A DNA stretch of 64,000 nucleotides from NCBI RefSeq assembly GCF_002160815.1, contig NZ_NFLH01000001.1, forward strand, positions 124,001 through 188,000, written 5' to 3'. The DNA comes from Massilimicrobiota sp. An134. Lineage in GTDB: Bacteria; Bacillota_I; Bacilli_A; Erysipelotrichales; Coprobacillaceae. Shown here in pieces: positions 6,153 through 51,072 of this stretch. A program made the translations under genes and the position numbers. Positions within the stretch are counted from its first letter, which is position 1, and the number at the start of each line of letters is the position of its first letter. The notes under the pieces are model-generated. The model saw only the letters and a program-made list of their open reading frames with translations, was not told the origin of the DNA and made no database searches.

Positions 6153-6184
6153 AAAAAAAGCTACTGATTCAATCAGCAGCTTTA
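6153..6184 (-). terminator. Hairpin terminator/attenuator between lonA and engB
   Basis: The minus strand forms AAAGCTGCTGAT with ATCAGTAGCTTT (one G-U pair, 3-base loop) followed by T7. It overlaps the lonA stop codon and lies immediately before the engB ribosome-binding site. No separate engB promoter is evident, so partial read-through is likely. Confidence 0.75.
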
Positions 6185-8509
6185 TTGTTTCACTAAAGCA
6201 TTTTCTAAAACAGTATCAATATTATCTGCTAATATAATATTCAAATCATTTTGAACTGATTCAGGAATATCATCAATATCCTTTTCATTATCTTTAGGAA
6301 TAATGATTGTACGAATACCACTACGATGTGCAGAAATTGATTTTTCTTTAAGTCCACCAATTGGTAATACTTGTCCTCTTAATGTAATTTCACCTGTCAT
6401 AGCAACGTCATCACGAACAGGACGATTGCTAAAGGCAGATAAGATTGCTGTTGTTAAAGTCACACCAGCACTTGGTCCATCTTTTTTGACTGCTCCCTCT
6501 GGAACATGAATATGAATATCTTGCTTATCAAAAGCAATGTTTTCTAATCCATATTTTTGAGAATTTGCTTTCATGTAATCTAATGCAATAGATGCAGATT
6601 CTTTCATAACATCACCAAGCTGTCCAGTAATAATAAATTTACCACTACCAGCAAAATGATTAACTTCAATTGGTAAAATATCTCCACCATATTGCGTATA
6701 TGCCATTCCAGTAACAACACCTACTTGTGGCTTATCTAATTTTTTAGTATGTTCAAATGGTGCTTTACCAAGATATTCTTCTAAATCTTCAACATTTAAT
6801 GTAAGCATTAAAGACTGATCTTTTAAGATTTTTAAAACAGCTTTTCGACAGATTTTAGCAATTAAACGTTCTAATTGTCTAACTCCTGCTTCACGTGTAT
6901 AATGACGAATCACATACATGAATGCATCATCTGATATATGAAGCTGTTCATCTTTTAAACCATGAACTTTACATTCTTTTTTCAATAAATGTCTTTTAGC
7001 AATTTCTAATTTTTCTTGTTCTGTATATGAAGATATCTCAATGATTTCAAGTCTATCTCTTAATGGATCAGGAATACTTCCAAGATCATTTGCAGTTGCG
7101 ATGAATAAAACTTTTGATAAATCATAAGGTTCTTCTAAATAATTATCAGAGAAGAATTGGTTTTGTTCTGGATCAAGAACTTCAAGCATTGCACTTGTTG
7201 GATCACCTTTATAATCACTAGACATTTTATCAATTTCATCTAATAAGAAAACTGGGTTCACAACACCTGCTTTTTTCATTCCTTGAATAATTCTTCCTGG
7301 CATAGAACCTAAATAAGTTCTACGATGTCCTCTAATTTCAGCTTCATCTCTTACTCCACCTAATGAAGCTTTTACAAATTTTCTACCTAATGCTCTTGCA
7401 ATAGATTTAGAAATAGAAGTTTTCCCTACTCCTGGAGGACCAACCAAACAAATAATTGGAGCATTTAAAGACTGAGTCATTTGTTTAACAGCTAAGTGTT
7501 CCACAATTCTTTCTTTTGGTTTTTCTAATCCAAAATGATCTTCATCAAGAATTCTTTCTACTTCATTGATATCTTGTGTATCTTCAGTTTCTTGATACCA
7601 AGGTGTTTTCATAACCCAATCAATATAAGTTCTCACAACATTGGCTTCAGAAGAAGCAGGTGGCATCATATCATATCGTTTTAATTCTTCTTCAATCTTA
7701 TCTTTGATATGTTGAGGATAAGGTTTTGATTGAATTTCTTCACGAATATAATCTGTATCATCTTCTTTACTAGGTGTATCACCAAGTTCTTCTTTAATTG
7801 CACGTAATTTTTCTCTTAAATAATATTCTCTTTGATTTTCATCAATACTTTCTTTGACTTTAAGATTAATTTTTTCTTCTATTTCATTAATTGTCTTTTC
7901 TTCTTCCATGCTTGCAAGAACTAATAATAAACGTTTATTAATATCACATTCAGCTAAAATAGCTTGTTTTGTTTTTAATTCGACATTAATATATTGTCCT
8001 ATTGTATCAGCTAATGCACTTGCACTCATGCCCTGTGACAAACTTGCAAAAACTTCACGAGGGAAAACCTGAAGATTTTTATGCATTGTCTGCATCTGAT
8101 CTGTTAATTTTCTAACTAACGCAATTTCTTCAGCACGGTCACCATGAATATCTTCAAGATATTTTGTTTTTGCAAAAAGACAACCATCTCTTTCTTCAAG
8201 ATTTAAAATTTCTATTCTTTTTTGACCTTCAACAGTCAATTTGATTGTTCCATGATTATCTCTTTTGATTCTTCTTTTAATTTTGCATAATGTTCCATAA
8301 TGATAAACATGATCAAAATCTGTATTTTCATCAAGTGGATTTGTTTGAGAAATAAAAACAACGTTTTCATCAAATTCATTCACACTTAATTCAATTGCTT
8401 TAAGGCTAAAACTTCTTCCTACATCTAAAGAAATTTCATGAGAGGGAAAAACAACCATCCCTCTAGTACAAATGACAGGTAAATCAACGACAATATCTAA
8501 TTCATCCAT
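6182..8509 (-). CDS. lonA: ATP-dependent protease LonA
   Basis: 775 residues, same length as Bacillus LonA. Domains: N-terminal substrate-binding domain (about 8-205), coiled region, AAA+ module with Walker A GPPGVGKTS (about 355) and Walker B VFLLDEID, and the C-terminal protease domain with catalytic Ser in KDGPSAGVT (about 678) and Lys in GGLKEKSIS (about 721). Degrades misfolded and regulatory proteins in the cytosol. It sits directly after tig; clpX and lonB, which separate tig from lonA in Bacillus, are absent here. Ribosome-binding site AAGGAGGT. Confidence 0.98.
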   Translation of the reverse strand: MDELDIVVDLPVICTRGMVVFPSHEISLDVGRSFSLKAIELSVNEFDENVVFISQTNPLDENTDFDHVYHYGTLCKIKRRIKRDNHGTIKLTVEGQKRIEILNLEERDGCLFAKTKYLEDIHGDRAEEIALVRKLTDQMQTMHKNLQVFPREVFASLSQGMSASALADTIGQYINVELKTKQAILAECDINKRLLLVLASMEEEKTINEIEEKINLKVKESIDENQREYYLREKLRAIKEELGDTPSKEDDTDYIREEIQSKPYPQHIKDKIEEELKRYDMMPPASSEANVVRTYIDWVMKTPWYQETEDTQDINEVERILDEDHFGLEKPKERIVEHLAVKQMTQSLNAPIICLVGPPGVGKTSISKSIARALGRKFVKASLGGVRDEAEIRGHRRTYLGSMPGRIIQGMKKAGVVNPVFLLDEIDKMSSDYKGDPTSAMLEVLDPEQNQFFSDNYLEEPYDLSKVLFIATANDLGSIPDPLRDRLEIIEISSYTEQEKLEIAKRHLLKKECKVHGLKDEQLHISDDAFMYVIRHYTREAGVRQLERLIAKICRKAVLKILKDQSLMLTLNVEDLEEYLGKAPFEHTKKLDKPQVGVVTGMAYTQYGGDILPIEVNHFAGSGKFIITGQLGDVMKESASIALDYMKANSQKYGLENIAFDKQDIHIHVPEGAVKKDGPSAGVTLTTAILSAFSNRPVRDDVAMTGEITLRGQVLPIGGLKEKSISAHRSGIRTIIIPKDNEKDIDDIPESVQNDLNIILADNIDTVLENALVKQ

Positions 8510-8582: not shown

Positions 8583-8608
8583 AAACAAGACGCTTGAAGC
8601 GTCTTATT
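8583..8608 (-). terminator. Terminator after tig
   Basis: Minus-strand stem AAGACGC/GCGTCTT with a short TTCAA loop, followed by a T-rich tail; it starts at the tig stop codon. Confidence 0.85.
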
Positions 8609-9884
8609 TTACATTATCTTTAATCAATTGAACAGCTTTACGAGTAGCTAAATCATTTCTAATTTGTCCTAACTGTCCTTCAAAGAGTTTTTTCACTTCG
8701 TCGAATTCTCTTCCATAGTAAGTTGCAATTTCTTTGATTTCGTCATCAACTTCATCATCGCTTACTTCGATATTTTCAGCTTTAACAATTTCAGATAAAA
8801 TCAAATTAAATTTCACACGTTTTTCAGCTTGTTCTCTCATTTCAGCTTTCATATCATCAAGAGTTTTACCAGTTAATTGTTGGAATAAATCCATTGTTAA
8901 ACCTTGTTGAGATAAATTTTGTTCAACTTCTCTTAACATTTGTTGAAGTTCTGTTTCAATCATTGCATCAGGAACTTCAAGTGGTGTATTTTCAATAACG
9001 GCATTGAAAATATCATCACTGAATTTTGCTTCAGCTTCATTTTGTTTTCTGTTTTTGATTTGTTCTTTTGTGTAAGTTTCTAAATCAGCTAAAGTTTCAA
9101 TACCATCAACATTAACATCTTTTGCTAATTCATCATCAATTTCAGGTAAAACTTTTGATTTAATTTCATGAACTTTAACTTTGAAAGTTGCTTTTTGTCC
9201 AGCTAAATCAGCAGCCTGATAATTTTCTGGGAAAGTGACTTCAATTTCTTTTTCTTCACCAACACCCATACCAATTAATTGTTCTTCGAAACCAGGAATG
9301 AATGATCCTGAACCAATTTCTAATGGATGGTTTTCACCTTTTCCACCTTCAAAAGCAACACCATCTTTAAATCCTTCAAAGTCAATAACAGCTGTATCAC
9401 CGTTTTCAACTTGGCCATCTTCTTTTATAACTAATTCAGCAAATTGATTTTGATAATTCTTTAATTCAGCTTCAATTTCTTTCTTTGTAACTTTAACTTG
9501 TGTCTTTTTCACTTCTAAACCTTTGTACTGACCTAATTGTACTTCTGGAGCAACTGGTGCAGTTACAGTTAATTTAAGAACATCTTCTGAAATTTCATCA
9601 ATTTTCACTTCAGGTTGTCCTACTGGACGAATATCATTATCCAATAAAATACCTGAATAATTTTGTTGTAAAATCATATCAGTTGCTTCTTCTAAAATAG
9701 TTCCTTTTCCAAGTCTTGCTTTAACCATTTGTTTAGGTACATGACCTTTTCTAAAACCATCAATCTTAACTTGTTTTGCTAATTTGTCTAATGCTTTTTC
9801 TTGAGCTTTTTTCCATTCTTCAGTTGTGAAAGTCACTTTAACTTCCATCATAGATTTTTCAAGTTTATTACAAACTGTTTCCAT
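8604..9884 (-). CDS. tig: Trigger factor (ribosome-associated chaperone)
   Basis: 426 residues. The N-terminal ribosome-binding domain carries the signature GFRKGHVPKQMV (about residues 43-54, GFRxGxxP). The FKBP-type prolyl isomerase domain spans about 150-240 (GDTAVIDFEGFKDG ... IPGFEEQLIGM). The C-terminal helical chaperone region is complete. It shields nascent chains at the ribosome exit. It has its own promoter and terminator, with a TPR gene upstream and lonA downstream, close to the Bacillus ysoA-tig arrangement. Confidence 0.98.
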   Translation of the reverse strand: METVCNKLEKSMMEVKVTFTTEEWKKAQEKALDKLAKQVKIDGFRKGHVPKQMVKARLGKGTILEEATDMILQQNYSGILLDNDIRPVGQPEVKIDEISEDVLKLTVTAPVAPEVQLGQYKGLEVKKTQVKVTKKEIEAELKNYQNQFAELVIKEDGQVENGDTAVIDFEGFKDGVAFEGGKGENHPLEIGSGSFIPGFEEQLIGMGVGEEKEIEVTFPENYQAADLAGQKATFKVKVHEIKSKVLPEIDDELAKDVNVDGIETLADLETYTKEQIKNRKQNEAEAKFSDDIFNAVIENTPLEVPDAMIETELQQMLREVEQNLSQQGLTMDLFQQLTGKTLDDMKAEMREQAEKRVKFNLILSEIVKAENIEVSDDEVDDEIKEIATYYGREFDEVKKLFEGQLGQIRNDLATRKAVQLIKDNVK

Positions 9885-9948: not shown

Positions 9949-10872
9949 TTAACACTCAACTTGTTTGAGTGCTAAAATTTGTTCTTCAATTGCTTCTAAA
10001 TCACAATAATATAAAATTTCTAATTCTGACAAGTCAACATCTATAGAGAGTAATGTTGCCACATAATAATGAATTGAGGCTGCCCAGACATTATAATCCA
10101 TTTCATCAATTTCCTGTGGATAGAAAGAATACAGTAAATATTCCAAATATTCCTGACACTGTTCAAAAAGTGAAGGATTATCACTTTCCAATGCATTTTC
10201 AAGATACTTTAAAATACCTGTATAAGCAAGCTGATCTAATACCATTGGCATATAGCTTGGATTAAAACTATAAATCCGACCAAACTTCTCAACTTCCATT
10301 TCTTCATCAACCTGCTGATCAATCATAATTTCCATTAATAAAGTCTTTGCAAAAAAATGTTTATTTGGATCCATCAAATAAGTTTTAATTGTAGGAATAA
10401 TCATACGAACATTCAATTGCTGTAATTGATCAAGTGCCATATACAACAAATCTTCATTACAATCTTTTTTGTTTAACAATTGATTAATTTCTTCTATTGA
10501 AAAAATTTGATTTTTATTTTCAACTTCATATCGAGCTTCCTGCTTTTCAAGCAAAATTTCGTCATAAGCCGTATTAAACAAAGTTTCATATTGATAAGGT
10601 ATATAAGGCATAGATAATTCTTCAATTAATAAATCTATTGCTTCTTCATATTCACCCAATTCTTTTAATGCCATGATGTACATAGATATAACATCATAAT
10701 ATGTTTCTTTTGCCAAAGCCTTTGCATGAGCGCCTTCATATTTTGCTTTTTCAAATTCACCCAACCCAATGAAACAAACGAGTCTTAAATATCTTGTTTT
10801 TTCATCATTCATATCATGAAGCTGATTTAAAGCTTGAAGATATTCACCATTTTCAATCAACTCTTCAATCAA
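9949..10872 (-). CDS. TPR-repeat protein, YsoA-like
   Basis: 307-residue helical, acidic soluble protein. The first 100 residues show TPR-like repeats (YLQALNQLHDM, EFEKAKYEGAHAKAL, EYEEAIDLLIEELS). The rest is helical with a conserved-looking middle (EEINQLLNKKDCNEDLLYMALDQLQQ). Adjacent position upstream of tig matches Bacillus ysoA, itself an uncharacterised TPR protein; the link is synteny plus architecture. No enzymatic motif. The start ATG at 10872 has an AAAGGAGGGATAAA ribosome-binding site. Confidence 0.82.
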   Translation of the reverse strand: MIEELIENGEYLQALNQLHDMNDEKTRYLRLVCFIGLGEFEKAKYEGAHAKALAKETYYDVISMYIMALKELGEYEEAIDLLIEELSMPYIPYQYETLFNTAYDEILLEKQEARYEVENKNQIFSIEEINQLLNKKDCNEDLLYMALDQLQQLNVRMIIPTIKTYLMDPNKHFFAKTLLMEIMIDQQVDEEMEVEKFGRIYSFNPSYMPMVLDQLAYTGILKYLENALESDNPSLFEQCQEYLEYLLYSFYPQEIDEMDYNVWAASIHYYVATLLSIDVDLSELEILYYCDLEAIEEQILALKQVEC

Positions 10873-45844: not shown

Positions 45845-46615
45845 CTATTTATATTTTTTTATAATTTTTTTATAATTCTTTAAAGAAATATATTCTAAAT
45901 CCTTCAATGTTTCTAAACAATCGAGATACAAATAATTTTCAATATCATATGCAATCTTTTGAATATCTTCAATACGAACTTCACATTGAGCTTTATCGTC
46001 TTGAATAATAACTTTATTCAAAAATTCATGATTATCTTTTTTAAAGATATAAATGGTTTTAAGCGGATCAAAATAAAAGCAAACATGTCTTTGATCTTCG
46101 TATACATTCTCCAAAGAAGAAAAACCTGTACGAAAGATAGAATAACCATACATATCAATTGGTGTATGAAGATTCACTTTAAAATTTTGTATATATTCAC
46201 GATGTTGTTTTAATAGCAACATTTGATAATCATGAGTATAACGCTGATTGACAAATGGTTCTAAATAAGGAATATAAATCATGACTTGACTCTGTAAATC
46301 CTGGAAATGAGGAGCCGTTTCTAAAACTCCAGCAATATCATTATTAAACATCTTTTGTTTTTCATCATAATTTAAATAATCCAATAAATCATAATGTTGA
46401 TTTAAAAATCCCTCATAAATATTTTCAATCTGATTTTGCGTTAATAAACCTCGATATATAATTTCATATGAAAGCAAATCAAAATCAGTCTTGATCTTTG
46501 AAGATAAGCCCATCTTTTCAAAAAAAGAACGATGACTTTCTATTTCTTGATATAATTGTGTTTTAGCAAGAGGAATTTCCACCCCTATTTTATTTAAACT
46601 TTCTATAAATCCCAT
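45845..46615 (-). CDS. Hypothetical protein between rsmE and mtaB
   Basis: 256 residues, soluble, rich in Tyr, Ile and Lys; no motif I recognise. The N-terminal half is helical (FIESLNKIGVEIPLAKTQLYQEIESHRSFFEKMG), the centre has PIDMYGYSIFRTGFSSLENVYEDQRHVCFYFDPLKTIYIFK, and the C-terminus is again helical and basic. Overlaps rsmE by 13 bases, so it is translated with it. In Bacillus, rsmE and mtaB are adjacent, so this is an insertion relative to that order. Confidence 0.78.
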   Translation of the reverse strand: MGFIESLNKIGVEIPLAKTQLYQEIESHRSFFEKMGLSSKIKTDFDLLSYEIIYRGLLTQNQIENIYEGFLNQHYDLLDYLNYDEKQKMFNNDIAGVLETAPHFQDLQSQVMIYIPYLEPFVNQRYTHDYQMLLLKQHREYIQNFKVNLHTPIDMYGYSIFRTGFSSLENVYEDQRHVCFYFDPLKTIYIFKKDNHEFLNKVIIQDDKAQCEVRIEDIQKIAYDIENYLYLDCLETLKDLEYISLKNYKKIIKKYK

Positions 46616-47349
46616 GATGACATCAACTCCCTACTAAATCCAATAACACTTAACATATATAACGGGGCTGTTTCGCTACGTAAAATTCTTTTTCCTAACG
46701 AGCAGGCCTGAACACCTAGCTCTTTCATCTTTTGAATTTCACTTTCATCAAAACCACCTTCAGGTCCTACAATAATTGTTATAGTGTGATAATCTTTTTG
46801 AAGCGTTTTTGCTAAAAGTGATTTTTCACCATTTCTGCTTTCTTCTTCATAGGCAACTAAATTGACATCGCCTAAATATTTCTCTAACTGTGATATTTTC
46901 ATAAGTGAAGTCAACTCAGGTATTGTCTGACGACAAGATTGTTCACTTGCCTCTTTTAAAATACGAGTATAACGTTCTCTTTTCTTTTCAAAAGATTTTT
47001 CATCCGTTTTAATAATACTTCTTTGTGATAGAAAAGGAACAATTCTATGAACACCTAATTCCGTAGCCTTTTGAAGAACCCATTCAAATTTATCATTTTT
47101 AGGTAAGCCATAGATTAAAGTCACTTCAACATCCAGTTCATTATTTTCTATGAGCTCTTCTTTTTGTTGAAGTATTCCTTTTTCAATATCTATAATTTCA
47201 TATATATAAACATGATGATCTGGTAAAATACAAATCACTCGATCACCTTGATGATATCGCATGACACGTTGCATATGTTTATGATTATAAGGGTCAATAT
47301 GTATGAATGATCCCTCTATATTTTGAGCATCTATAAAATATCTTTGCAT
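46603..47349 (-). CDS. rsmE: 16S rRNA (uracil1498-N3)-methyltransferase RsmE
   Basis: 248 residues. SPOUT-fold methyltransferase. N-terminal PUA-like domain, then VTLIYGLPKNDKFEWVLQKATELGV, RSIIKT and the knot motif IVGPEGGFDESE ... SLGKRILRSETAPLYML. AGGAGGAAGTT precedes the ATG. First gene of the rsmE-hypothetical-mtaB-murE-deoC unit. Confidence 0.97.
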   Translation of the reverse strand: MQRYFIDAQNIEGSFIHIDPYNHKHMQRVMRYHQGDRVICILPDHHVYIYEIIDIEKGILQQKEELIENNELDVEVTLIYGLPKNDKFEWVLQKATELGVHRIVPFLSQRSIIKTDEKSFEKKRERYTRILKEASEQSCRQTIPELTSLMKISQLEKYLGDVNLVAYEEESRNGEKSLLAKTLQKDYHTITIIVGPEGGFDESEIQKMKELGVQACSLGKRILRSETAPLYMLSVIGFSRELMSSWDL

Positions 47350-47396
47350 AACTTCCTCCTTTGGCTATTCTATCACATTTTGTTGAATATAAAAAG

Positions 47397-47431
47397 AAAA
47401 AAAGATTAGTAAAGTCAATCCTCTACTAACC
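47397..47431 (-). terminator. Terminator after clpB
   Basis: Minus-strand GGTTAGTA/TACTAATC stem (one G-U) followed by T7 CTTTTT, shortly after the clpB stop. Confidence 0.82.
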
Positions 47432-47440
47432 TTCTCACTC

Positions 47441-50011
47441 TTATGACTTTCTAATCATAAATTGTTGATTTTGATAATCAATCGTAATGTTATCATCTTT
47501 TTGAATAGAACCTTTAATCATTTCTTTGGCAACTAAAGTTTCAATATGTCCCTGAATGAAACGTTTAAGTGGTCTCGCTCCAAAAGTAGGATCAAAACCT
47601 TCTCTTGCGATTTCTTCTTTAGCCCCGTCACTCACTTGAACTGATATATTTTGTTGTTCTAGACGTTTAGAAAGCTGAGCAATAAATTTATCAATAATCT
47701 TATAAACAACTTGATTATCTAATGAATTGAACATGACAATTTCATCAATACGATTCAAGAATTCTGGTTTAAAATGAGCTTTTAATTCCATTTCAACTTC
47801 ATGTCTTGTTTCTTCATTATTACCTTGTAATAAATATTGTGAGCCAATATTAGATGTCATAATAATGATTGTATTTTTGAAGCTAACAACATTGCCTTTA
47901 GAATCAGTAATACGACCATCATCTAAGACTTGAAGCAAAACATTAAAGACTTCAGGATGGGCTTTTTCAATTTCATCCAATAAAACAATGCTATAAGGCG
48001 CACGTCTAACAGCTTCCGTTAATTGGCCACCTTCTTCATATCCAACATAACCTGGAGGAGCTCCTAACAAACGAGAAACACTGAATTTTTCCATATATTC
48101 ACTCATGTCAATACGGACAATATTCTTTTCACTATCGAATAATTGTTCTGCTAAACTCTTTGCAACTTCTGTTTTTCCTACTCCAGTTGGCCCAAGGAAC
48201 ATAAATGAACCAATTGGACGGTTTTCATCATTGATTCCAGCACGTGATCTTAAAATAGCATCACAGATTTTTTCAATCGCTTCATCCTGTCCAATAACTC
48301 TTTTTCTTAAAATATCATCAAGATGTAATAATTTTTCTCTTTCAGATTCCATCAATTTATGAATAGGAATACCTGTCCATCTAGCAATAACTTCACTGAC
48401 TGTATCAACTGTTACTTTTTCCTGTAATAAAGCATCATCAGACTCTTGTGATTGATAATTAGCAATTTCTTTATTAATACGAGGTAATGTTTCATATTTG
48501 ATTTTTGAAGCTTCTTCTAAATTACCTTCAGTTTCATATTTATCTTTAAGGGCTTCATATCTCACTTTTTGATCTTTTAATTCTTTAATATGATCTAAAG
48601 CTTTCTTTTCTTCTTTCCATTTATCTGTTAAACCTGTTACTTGTTCATCTAATGAAGCAATACGACTCTTAATTTCATCTAGACGTTTTTCATTATCTGC
48701 ATTTTTATCTTCTTTTTCAATAGAAATACGTTCCATTTCCAAACGATTCTTTTCTCTTGTGATAACATCTAATTCTTCTGGTAAAGAATCAATTTCCATA
48801 CGTACAGATGCACATGCTTCATCAATCAAATCAATAGCCTTATCTGGCAAGAAACGATCAGTAATATAACGTTCACTCATATTCACAGCTGCCACAATGG
48901 CACTATCTGTAATCTGAACACCATGATGAGATTCAAAGCTATCTTTTAAACCACGTAAAATCGCAATTGTATCGTCACTATCTGGTTCATCAACTTGAAC
49001 TTTTTGGAAACGTCTTTCTAAAGCAGCATCTTTTTCAATGTACATACGATACTCATCTAGCGTTGTTGCTCCAATACAGTGAAGTTCACCACGTGCTAAC
49101 ATTGGTTTTAATAAGTTAGCTGCATCCATAGCACCATCTGTTTTTCCAGCTCCAACAAGCTGATGAATCTCATCAATGAATAAAATGATATTTCCTTCAG
49201 ATTTTTTAATTTCATTTAATACAGCTTTTAATCTTTCTTCAAATTCACCACGATATTTAGCACCTGCTACCAAAGCTCCTAAATCAAGTTCATAAAGAGT
49301 CTTATTTTGCAAGCTGACAGGCACGTCATTTTTAAAAATACGCCATGCCAATCCTTCAACAATAGCAGTCTTTCCAACACCTGGTTCACCTATCAAAATA
49401 GGATTATTTTTTGTTTTACGTGATAAGATTTGAATAACACGTCTAATTTCTTCATCACGACCAATAACAGGATCTAATTTTCCATCCTTAACATCTTGAA
49501 TAAGATCTCTACCATATTTTGTTAAAACTTCATATTGATTTTCTGGTTGTGGATTATTAACCATATTTCCACCTCGCATTTCCTGAATAATCTTTTCTAA
49601 TTCTTTTTTATTTAAATGATATTGTCTAATCAAATCTTGAATAAATGTTGATTGCACTTCAAACATTGCCATAATCAAATGTTCAACACTTGTATATTCA
49701 TCTTTATAATCACTCATCACTTTTTGAGCCTTTATTAACAATTGATTCAAATCATATGATATTCTTAATTGACTTTCATCAACACCATTGACTCTTGGTT
49801 TTTGTTGTTGTTTATTTCTTAAAAATGTTTCTAACTGTTGAATATTGACATTTGCTTTTGATAGCACACGATATAAAATACCACTTGTATCTTCCAATAA
49901 TGCTAATAAAAAATCTTCAACATCAACAACCTGACAAGACATTCCTAAAGTCTGTTGCATGGCCTTTTGCATAGCTTCCTGCATAGCTGTTGTCCATTTT
50001 TCTATATTCAT
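47441..50011 (-). CDS. clpB: ATP-dependent disaggregase ClpB
   Basis: 856 residues. Hsp104-type chaperone that resolves aggregates with DnaK. Clp N-domain (about 1-145), AAA+ 1 with [15 protein letters not shown], the long coiled-coil M-domain (about 400-525), and AAA+ 2 with [16 protein letters not shown] and [12 protein letters not shown]; no ClpP-binding loop is evident. The ATG at 50011 has AAAGGAG eight bases upstream; earlier in-frame ATGs are too close to that site or inside the CIRCE element. Regulation by HrcA is expected from two CIRCE boxes. Confidence 0.97.
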
Positions 50012-50024
50012 CTTCATCACTCCT

Positions 50025-50051
50025 TTAGCACTCATTATACCCAAGTGCTAA
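50025..50051 (-). promoter_or_regulatory. CIRCE operator, promoter-proximal to the clpB start
   Basis: TTAGCACTC-N9-AAGTGCTAA on the plus strand, a 9-9-9 HrcA-binding inverted repeat with one mismatch between arms. It lies at the transcription start, just downstream of the -10 box and ahead of the ribosome-binding site. Confidence 0.95.
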
Positions 50052-50055
50052 TTAT

Positions 50056-50083
50056 AGTATACCATGTTTTTTAGCACTGTCAA
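50056..50083 (-). promoter_or_regulatory. clpB promoter between the two CIRCE elements
   Basis: TTGACA (50083..50078), 16-base spacer, TATACT (50061..50056) with an extended TGG immediately before it. The -35 box lies inside the upstream CIRCE element. Confidence 0.88.
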
Positions 50084-50097
50084 CCCCGAAGTGCTAA
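50071..50097 (-). promoter_or_regulatory. Second CIRCE operator, overlapping the clpB -35 box
   Basis: TTAGCACTG-N9-AAGTGCTAA, 9-9-9, with one mismatch between arms. Centre-to-centre distance to the first CIRCE is 46 bases. It covers the -35 hexamer. Confidence 0.93.
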
Positions 50098-50156
50098 AAT
50101 GTTTATTAAAATTCAAATATTGTTTTTATAATGAATAACCTAGCTTATTCAAATAA

Positions 50157-50183
50157 AAAATCTTTAGGATTTCTCCTAAAGAT
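50157..50183 (-). terminator. Terminator after degV
   Basis: Minus-strand ATCTTTAGGA/TCCTAAAGAT stem followed by T6; it includes the degV stop codon. Confidence 0.9.
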
Positions 50184-51072
50184 CATATTTTTTTAAAATA
50201 CCCACACCAATTGGATATGGTCCCGTATGCACACCAATTGTAGCGCCAATTTGTTGAATTAAAATAGGTTCATGGAAGTCTGGATAAGCTTGTAACATCA
50301 CCTCTTGCAAGCTTTCTTTAAACTTTTCTCCTTCTTGTTGATCATAGCCATACCCAACACAAAAACGATAATCATTTGGTGAAAGCTGGTTATCTTTAAA
50401 ATATTTTACAGTATGGTCAAGAACTTTCTTTTTAGATTTTTCACGTCCACGTGTAACACCCATTGCAAATATTTCACCATCATGAAGTACAATTAAAGGT
50501 CTAATTCCTAATGTTTTCGCTGCAACTCCAGCAACTTTACCAATTCGTCCACCATGAATGAGATATTCAAAATTTCCAACCGTAAAGAAAATACGTCCTG
50601 ACGATTTGATATTTTCAATTTTTTGAATCACTTCGTCATATTGATAGCCAGCTTCTTTCATTTGGGCAGCCTCAATAACCAGTAAACCTTGTAAAACAGT
50701 ATTCACAGTAGCATCAATAATCATAATTTGACGTTCAGGATATTTTTCCTCTAATATCATTTTCGCATTCATGGCACTGTTATAGGAACCAGAAAATTTA
50801 GTCGTAATACATATACATATAATATCTTCCTGATTTTCCAGGATAGGTGTAAAAGTTTTTATATAATCTTCAATAGAAGGCATCGAAGTTTTAGGAAAAA
50901 CATCTTTATGATCAACCATAAATTGATAAAATTCATGCACTTCTAAATCTTCTTTTTCTTTTTGATAGTGTTCATTATCTGTTGTTATATAAAATGGAAC
51001 AACATGAATATGAAACTGATTCATCAATGACTGATCTAAATCACATGAACCATCTGAAACTATCTGATACAT
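50176..51072 (-). CDS. DegV-family fatty-acid-binding protein
   Basis: 298 residues. DegV/FakB family: binds a fatty acid for the FakA kinase. N-terminal IVSDGSCDL, FPKTSMPSIEDY, ITTKFSGSYNSA, FFTVGNFEYLIHGGRIGK, and C-terminal GATIGVHTGPYPIGVG are the family hallmarks. No fakA gene is in the window, so it may pair with a distant kinase. Last gene of the priA-degV run. Confidence 0.93.
   Translation of the reverse strand: MYQIVSDGSCDLDQSLMNQFHIHVVPFYITTDNEHYQKEKEDLEVHEFYQFMVDHKDVFPKTSMPSIEDYIKTFTPILENQEDIICICITTKFSGSYNSAMNAKMILEEKYPERQIMIIDATVNTVLQGLLVIEAAQMKEAGYQYDEVIQKIENIKSSGRIFFTVGNFEYLIHGGRIGKVAGVAAKTLGIRPLIVLHDGEIFAMGVTRGREKSKKKVLDHTVKYFKDNQLSPNDYRFCVGYGYDQQEGEKFKESLQEVMLQAYPDFHEPILIQQIGATIGVHTGPYPIGVGILKKYDL

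Follow-up and report, generated by a model that had tools for sequence, protein, structure and literature searches.

The clpB promoter of Massilimicrobiota sp. An134 is, with high probability, a class I (HrcA/CIRCE) heat-shock promoter in which two operators are placed relative to the promoter. It was found in a stretch of 64,000 nucleotides that was analysed as a whole (the window). The gene lies on the minus strand (47441..50011, with its ATG start at 50011) and encodes a protein of 856 aa with the domains Clp_N, AAA, AAA_2 and ClpB_D2-small, that is, two AAA modules and a D2-small domain. It was identified as ClpB on account of this domain set and of TIGR03346 being the best family by far, with a score of 1223.9 bits that lies about 8 under the equivalog cut-off of 1232.1.

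Ahead of clpB, the minus strand reads TTAGCACTTCGGGGTTGACAGTGCTAA - AAAACATGGTATACTATAA - TTAGCACTTGGGTATAATGAGTGCTAA - AGGAGTGATGAAG-ATG in 5' to 3' order. The first element is the upstream CIRCE operator (50071..50097, minus strand) and the third is the downstream one (50025..50051, minus strand). Scored against the consensus TTAGCACTC-N9-GAGTGCTAA, they show two mismatches and one mismatch, respectively, and when arm is set against arm each has one mispair (8/9). The original prediction of two 9-9-9 repeats, 46 bp apart from start to start and with one arm mispair each, was thus confirmed by the scan. With ≤3 mismatches allowed, three CIRCE sites were found in the 64-kb window against 0.02 expected, and 0 of 100 shuffles reached three. 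A chance origin of the pair was ruled out by the shuffles together with zero matches for the reversed pattern.

The promoter is of the vegetative sigma-A type and overlaps the operator. Its -35 hexamer, TTGACA (50078..50083, minus strand), stands within the upstream operator and is kept in relatives; it is separated by a 16-nt spacer from an extended -10, TGG TATACT (50056..50064, minus strand; hexamer 50061-50056, TG 50064-50063). With 11/12 matches, TTGACA-16-TATACT plus TG is the top promoter-like site in 46500-50300, in agreement with the earlier claim of a strong extended -10 promoter flanked by the repeats. The downstream operator begins 4 nt past the -10, spans the predicted transcription start (at about 50049) and makes up most of the 5' UTR, and the Shine-Dalgarno sequence AGGAG (50020..50024, minus strand) directly adjoins it. 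As had been foreseen, one repeat covers the -35 and the other the predicted start; double repression, also suggested at the outset, is the natural reading, as two HrcA operators flank the promoter.

The right arm of the upstream operator is CAGTGCTAA and not GAGTGCTAA, because TTGACA ends in CA, bases that are common to the -35 and the operator. One of the two mismatches of this operator (position 19, G to C) is thereby forced by TTGACA, and the arm mismatch reflects the competing demands of two proteins rather than decay. On comparing 92 distinct dual elements collected from related genomes, it was found that positions 19-20 are CA in 78 of the upstream operators and GA in 84 of the downstream ones. 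All 92 carry TTGA[CT] in the upstream operator, and in 80 of them the -35 has the same register within that operator as at clpB. A gene could be assigned to 86 elements, which was always clpB, hrcA, htpG, hsp20 or groES and nothing else; the remaining six begin like htpG.

The genomes were searched for pairs with exact 7-bp arms lying 10-40 nt apart, a search that misses imperfect or wider pairs such as the one at hrcA of L. plantarum. Such a close pair is carried by 36 of the 43 genomes of the window's family, by 59/295 genomes of its order and by 39/296 of its class; the reversed pattern gave 0 in every genome listed in the order and class samples. Since the phylum-level sample consisted of the window's class, with no outgroup, the class of Lentilactobacillus (Bacilli proper) was searched separately, and no close exact-arm pair was found in its 250 genomes. 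Group names for the relatives' genomes were inferred; the class appears to hold Erysipelotrichia along with small, Mollicutes-like genomes in which clpB is read through TGA. Among named records, an uncultured Massilimicrobiota sp. is closest, with a ClpB that is 97% identical, and its clpB and hrcA elements are identical to those of a genome in the window's genus.

The Massilimicrobiota genome (2.56 Mb in 94 contigs, complete by marker count) holds one hrcA gene (TIGR00331 at 344 bits, cut-off 197; PF01628 once) in the order hrcA-grpE-dnaK-dnaJ. Every CIRCE found in the genome adjoins chaperone or protease genes, namely tig-lon, clpB, groESL, htpG, hrcA-grpE-dnaK and hsp20. Pairs are present at clpB (46 bp), htpG (47), hrcA-grpE-dnaK (46) and groESL (69, one weak), and single sites at tig-lon and hsp20. 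The idea that the double-operator layout is unique to clpB was rejected, as htpG and hrcA-grpE-dnaK of the same genome share it. It was also considered whether clpB had taken the dnaK promoter by duplication; the clpB and hrcA cassettes are identical at 55/73 positions, most of which are accounted for by the shared operators and hexamers. In the groESL pair (C1:205680 and C1:205749), one site is degenerate and the upstream operator lacks a -35, unlike at clpB, htpG and hrcA. The same hsp20 promoter with a composite CIRCE occurs twice, at C3:68859 and C20:15718, close to a contig end in one case and on another contig in the other; the hsp20 region may be duplicated, or the two contigs may overlap in the assembly. 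The single CIRCE upstream of tig and lon (9949..9975, minus strand; one mismatch) sits in the 3' end of an upstream ORF (9949-10872), with trigger factor at 8604-9884 and lon at 6182-8509; it would put tig-lon in the HrcA regulon, like the lon gene of Mycoplasma.

No CtsR box with ≤2 mismatches was found in the 400 bp upstream of clpB, as had been claimed, and the genome search for ctsR that had been suggested was run and gave no ctsR, the control genome of Lactococcus lactis being positive in the same test. CtsR was likewise not found in the 295 genomes of the order nor in the 296 of the class. A CIRCE with ≤4 mismatches stands upstream of 75/80 clpB genes of the class, compared with 4/1600 shuffled sequences; the promoters have a pair in 13 of the 80 and a single operator in 62. 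A few of the single matches, in one family, stand about 600 bp ahead of clpB, and the gene they serve may be a preceding one of the same operon. A second set of 80 clpB loci was drawn from named genomes across many phyla; 13 of these have a CIRCE, seven have a CtsR box by the scan that gave none at clpB of Massilimicrobiota, and none has both. Apart from one Massilimicrobiota locus, the CIRCE loci come mainly from Lachnospiraceae and further Clostridia, and several of them share the composite -35; the CtsR-box loci belong to Bacillus, Paenibacillus, Staphylococcus, Streptococcaceae, Lactobacillales, Lentilactobacillus and one Clostridiales. A single composite CIRCE/-35 of the form TTAGCACTC...CTTGACAGTGCTAA, without a CtsR box, was seen at clpB of a Clostridium sp. 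MAG and of Lachnospiraceae (L034, L047, L054-L056, L068).

From the 13/80 named-genome loci and the 75/80 clpB genes of the class, it follows that HrcA control of clpB is common. The original prediction had described clpB as usually being under CtsR in Firmicutes, which is correct for Bacilli but not elsewhere, given the CIRCE at clpB of Lachnospiraceae and other Clostridia. The further statement that HrcA took over from CtsR is not supported as a direction of change, CtsR not having been found in the order and class samples. Since HrcA control of clpB is common outside Bacilli, caution is advisable in calling it a takeover.

It is proposed, tentatively and with about as much reserve as conviction, that the cassette, with one CIRCE arm serving as the consensus -35 and another CIRCE beginning 4 nt past the -10, may have become the shared design of the chaperone promoters (clpB, hrcA-grpE-dnaK, htpG, hsp20, groES) in an Erysipelotrichia/Mollicutes lineage that is free of CtsR; HrcA would thereby shut these promoters off almost completely where CtsR is missing. 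A standardised composite -35/CIRCE double-operator cassette across the chaperone regulon of this lineage appears to be undescribed so far; in the open-licence literature, no paper was found that describes a composite double operator with fixed spacing as the design of a whole regulon.

By analogy with the HrcA family, clpB would be subject to HrcA binding, repression by two dimers, GroE titration and release by heat. At normal temperature, HrcA would sit on both operators, one dimer covering the -35 from the upstream site and the other covering the start site from the downstream one, and sigma-A RNA polymerase would thereby be kept from binding or starting. Unfolded protein that occupies GroE would cause HrcA to lose activity, and clpB would then be transcribed. 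The upstream arm mismatch would be the cost of carrying the consensus TTGACA. As the same cassette is present at hrcA-grpE-dnaK and htpG, ClpB would be made together with its DnaK partners, and during heat shock it would be induced along with DnaK and HtpG.

The geometry bears on the reason for having two sites. Where the -35 begins at operator position 14, the operators are 46 bp apart with a 16-nt spacer and 47 with a 17-nt spacer, and where it begins at position 12 (groES), they are 44 apart; a few other relatives have spacings of 51-57. The gap between the -10 and the downstream operator is exactly 4 nt in 80/92 dual elements. Since the spacing follows the promoter hexamers, the operators are fixed to the promoter and not to each other, and this promoter-locked geometry fits two dimers that occlude the -35 and the start site. 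Looping, which had been raised in the original prediction, or cooperative binding would make the interaction of two HrcA dimers the reason for paired sites, and it is true that two sites per promoter are kept for clpB in the family. However, a spacing that varies with promoter register (44/46/47) while the 4-nt gap stays makes this quite improbable. In addition, 46 bp corresponds to about 4.4 helical turns, and spacings of 44-57 bp do not keep to whole turns; the dimers would stand on different faces, and such short DNA should resist looping. A literature search on looping returned nothing. A second composite register, TTGACAGAGTGCTAA (L162, L164, L166-L168), was also observed: its CIRCE arm is complete, its -35 comes two bases sooner and its downstream operator is 51-57 bp away.

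The two mismatches of the upstream site, and the high share of clpB promoters with a single operator in the class (62/80), could be taken to mean that the near-consensus downstream operator alone is functional and that the upstream repeat has decayed, being kept since its arm doubles as the -35. Against this, both sites retain the 7-bp arms TTAGCAC/GTGCTAA unchanged at clpB, hrcA and htpG, and the same holds for many relatives. Moreover, 13 single-site clpB promoters of the class keep exactly the composite upstream type, as do several Lachnospiraceae clpB genes; the composite type is therefore under selection by itself, and a sole working downstream operator is considered unlikely. The downstream repeat may also be viewed as RNA, since it gives a 10-bp hairpin beside the Shine-Dalgarno sequence (-10.4 kcal/mol, z -2.78), and in B. 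subtilis a CIRCE effect at the mRNA level was reportedly once proposed. That this repeat mainly acts as a 5' UTR hairpin setting the stability or translation of clpB mRNA is nevertheless very improbable: a palindrome folds anyway, its sequence is conserved beyond pairing, and the upstream operator would be left unexplained. Repression from two operators, each placed on a part of the promoter, is thus the preferred reading.

The HrcA regulon of B. subtilis (dnaK and groE operons) has the same repressor, operator and GroE modulator as the system considered here. It has one CIRCE per promoter, and B. subtilis is not known to have a clpB. In Mycoplasma, as predicted for the window organism, clpB, dnaK and lon are under HrcA, clpB being so in both M. 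gallisepticum (PMC4245973) and M. pneumoniae (PMC7737663). The five CIRCE reported for the M. gallisepticum genome (clpB, dnaK, lon, dnaJ_2 and a dnaJ pseudogene) are not described as pairs (PMC4245973). Within the same broad lineage, clpB of Spiroplasma melliferum, whose clpB and dnaK promoters have been described, likewise has two CIRCE copies, one of them degenerate with three mutations (PMC5138195). The Spiroplasma copies are degenerate and were taken as a decaying system, whereas at clpB of Massilimicrobiota both match the consensus well and the arrangement is repeated at other genes of the regulon. The one heat experiment reported for S. melliferum showed no induction of its HrcA regulon (PMC5138195), which counts against the explanation given for clpB here; in its favour, HrcA-dependent promoters of Acholeplasma laidlawii rose about 100-fold with heat (PMC5138195). 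In Lactobacillus plantarum, clpB is likewise heat-shock repressed, but by CtsR, another repressor with another box; paired CIRCE also stand before a chaperone operon of that species, but two copies were reported at hrcA only (PMC3842655).

The clpB layout neatly illustrates a known kind of heat-shock control and is no new system. It shows how bacteria without CtsR may regulate ClpB in the same way as DnaK, with one repressor and one promoter design for all their chaperones, and its fixed geometry offers a clean testable case of an operator and a promoter using the same bases. The cassette further provides a signature by which chaperone promoters can be recognised from sequence in a lineage that has been little studied experimentally.

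Downstream of clpB, an intrinsic terminator (47399..47436, minus strand; 16 pairs with a T-rich tail) was found, so that clpB is probably transcribed on its own. The segment 44526-50011 of the window holds clpB and then rsmE, an ORF and mtaB, with the terminator parting clpB from rsmE. The genes rsmE and mtaB, which in B. subtilis come last in the dnaK operon, are here separated from dnaK and sited behind clpB. The ORF between them (45845-46615, 256 aa) gave no Pfam or NCBIfam match.
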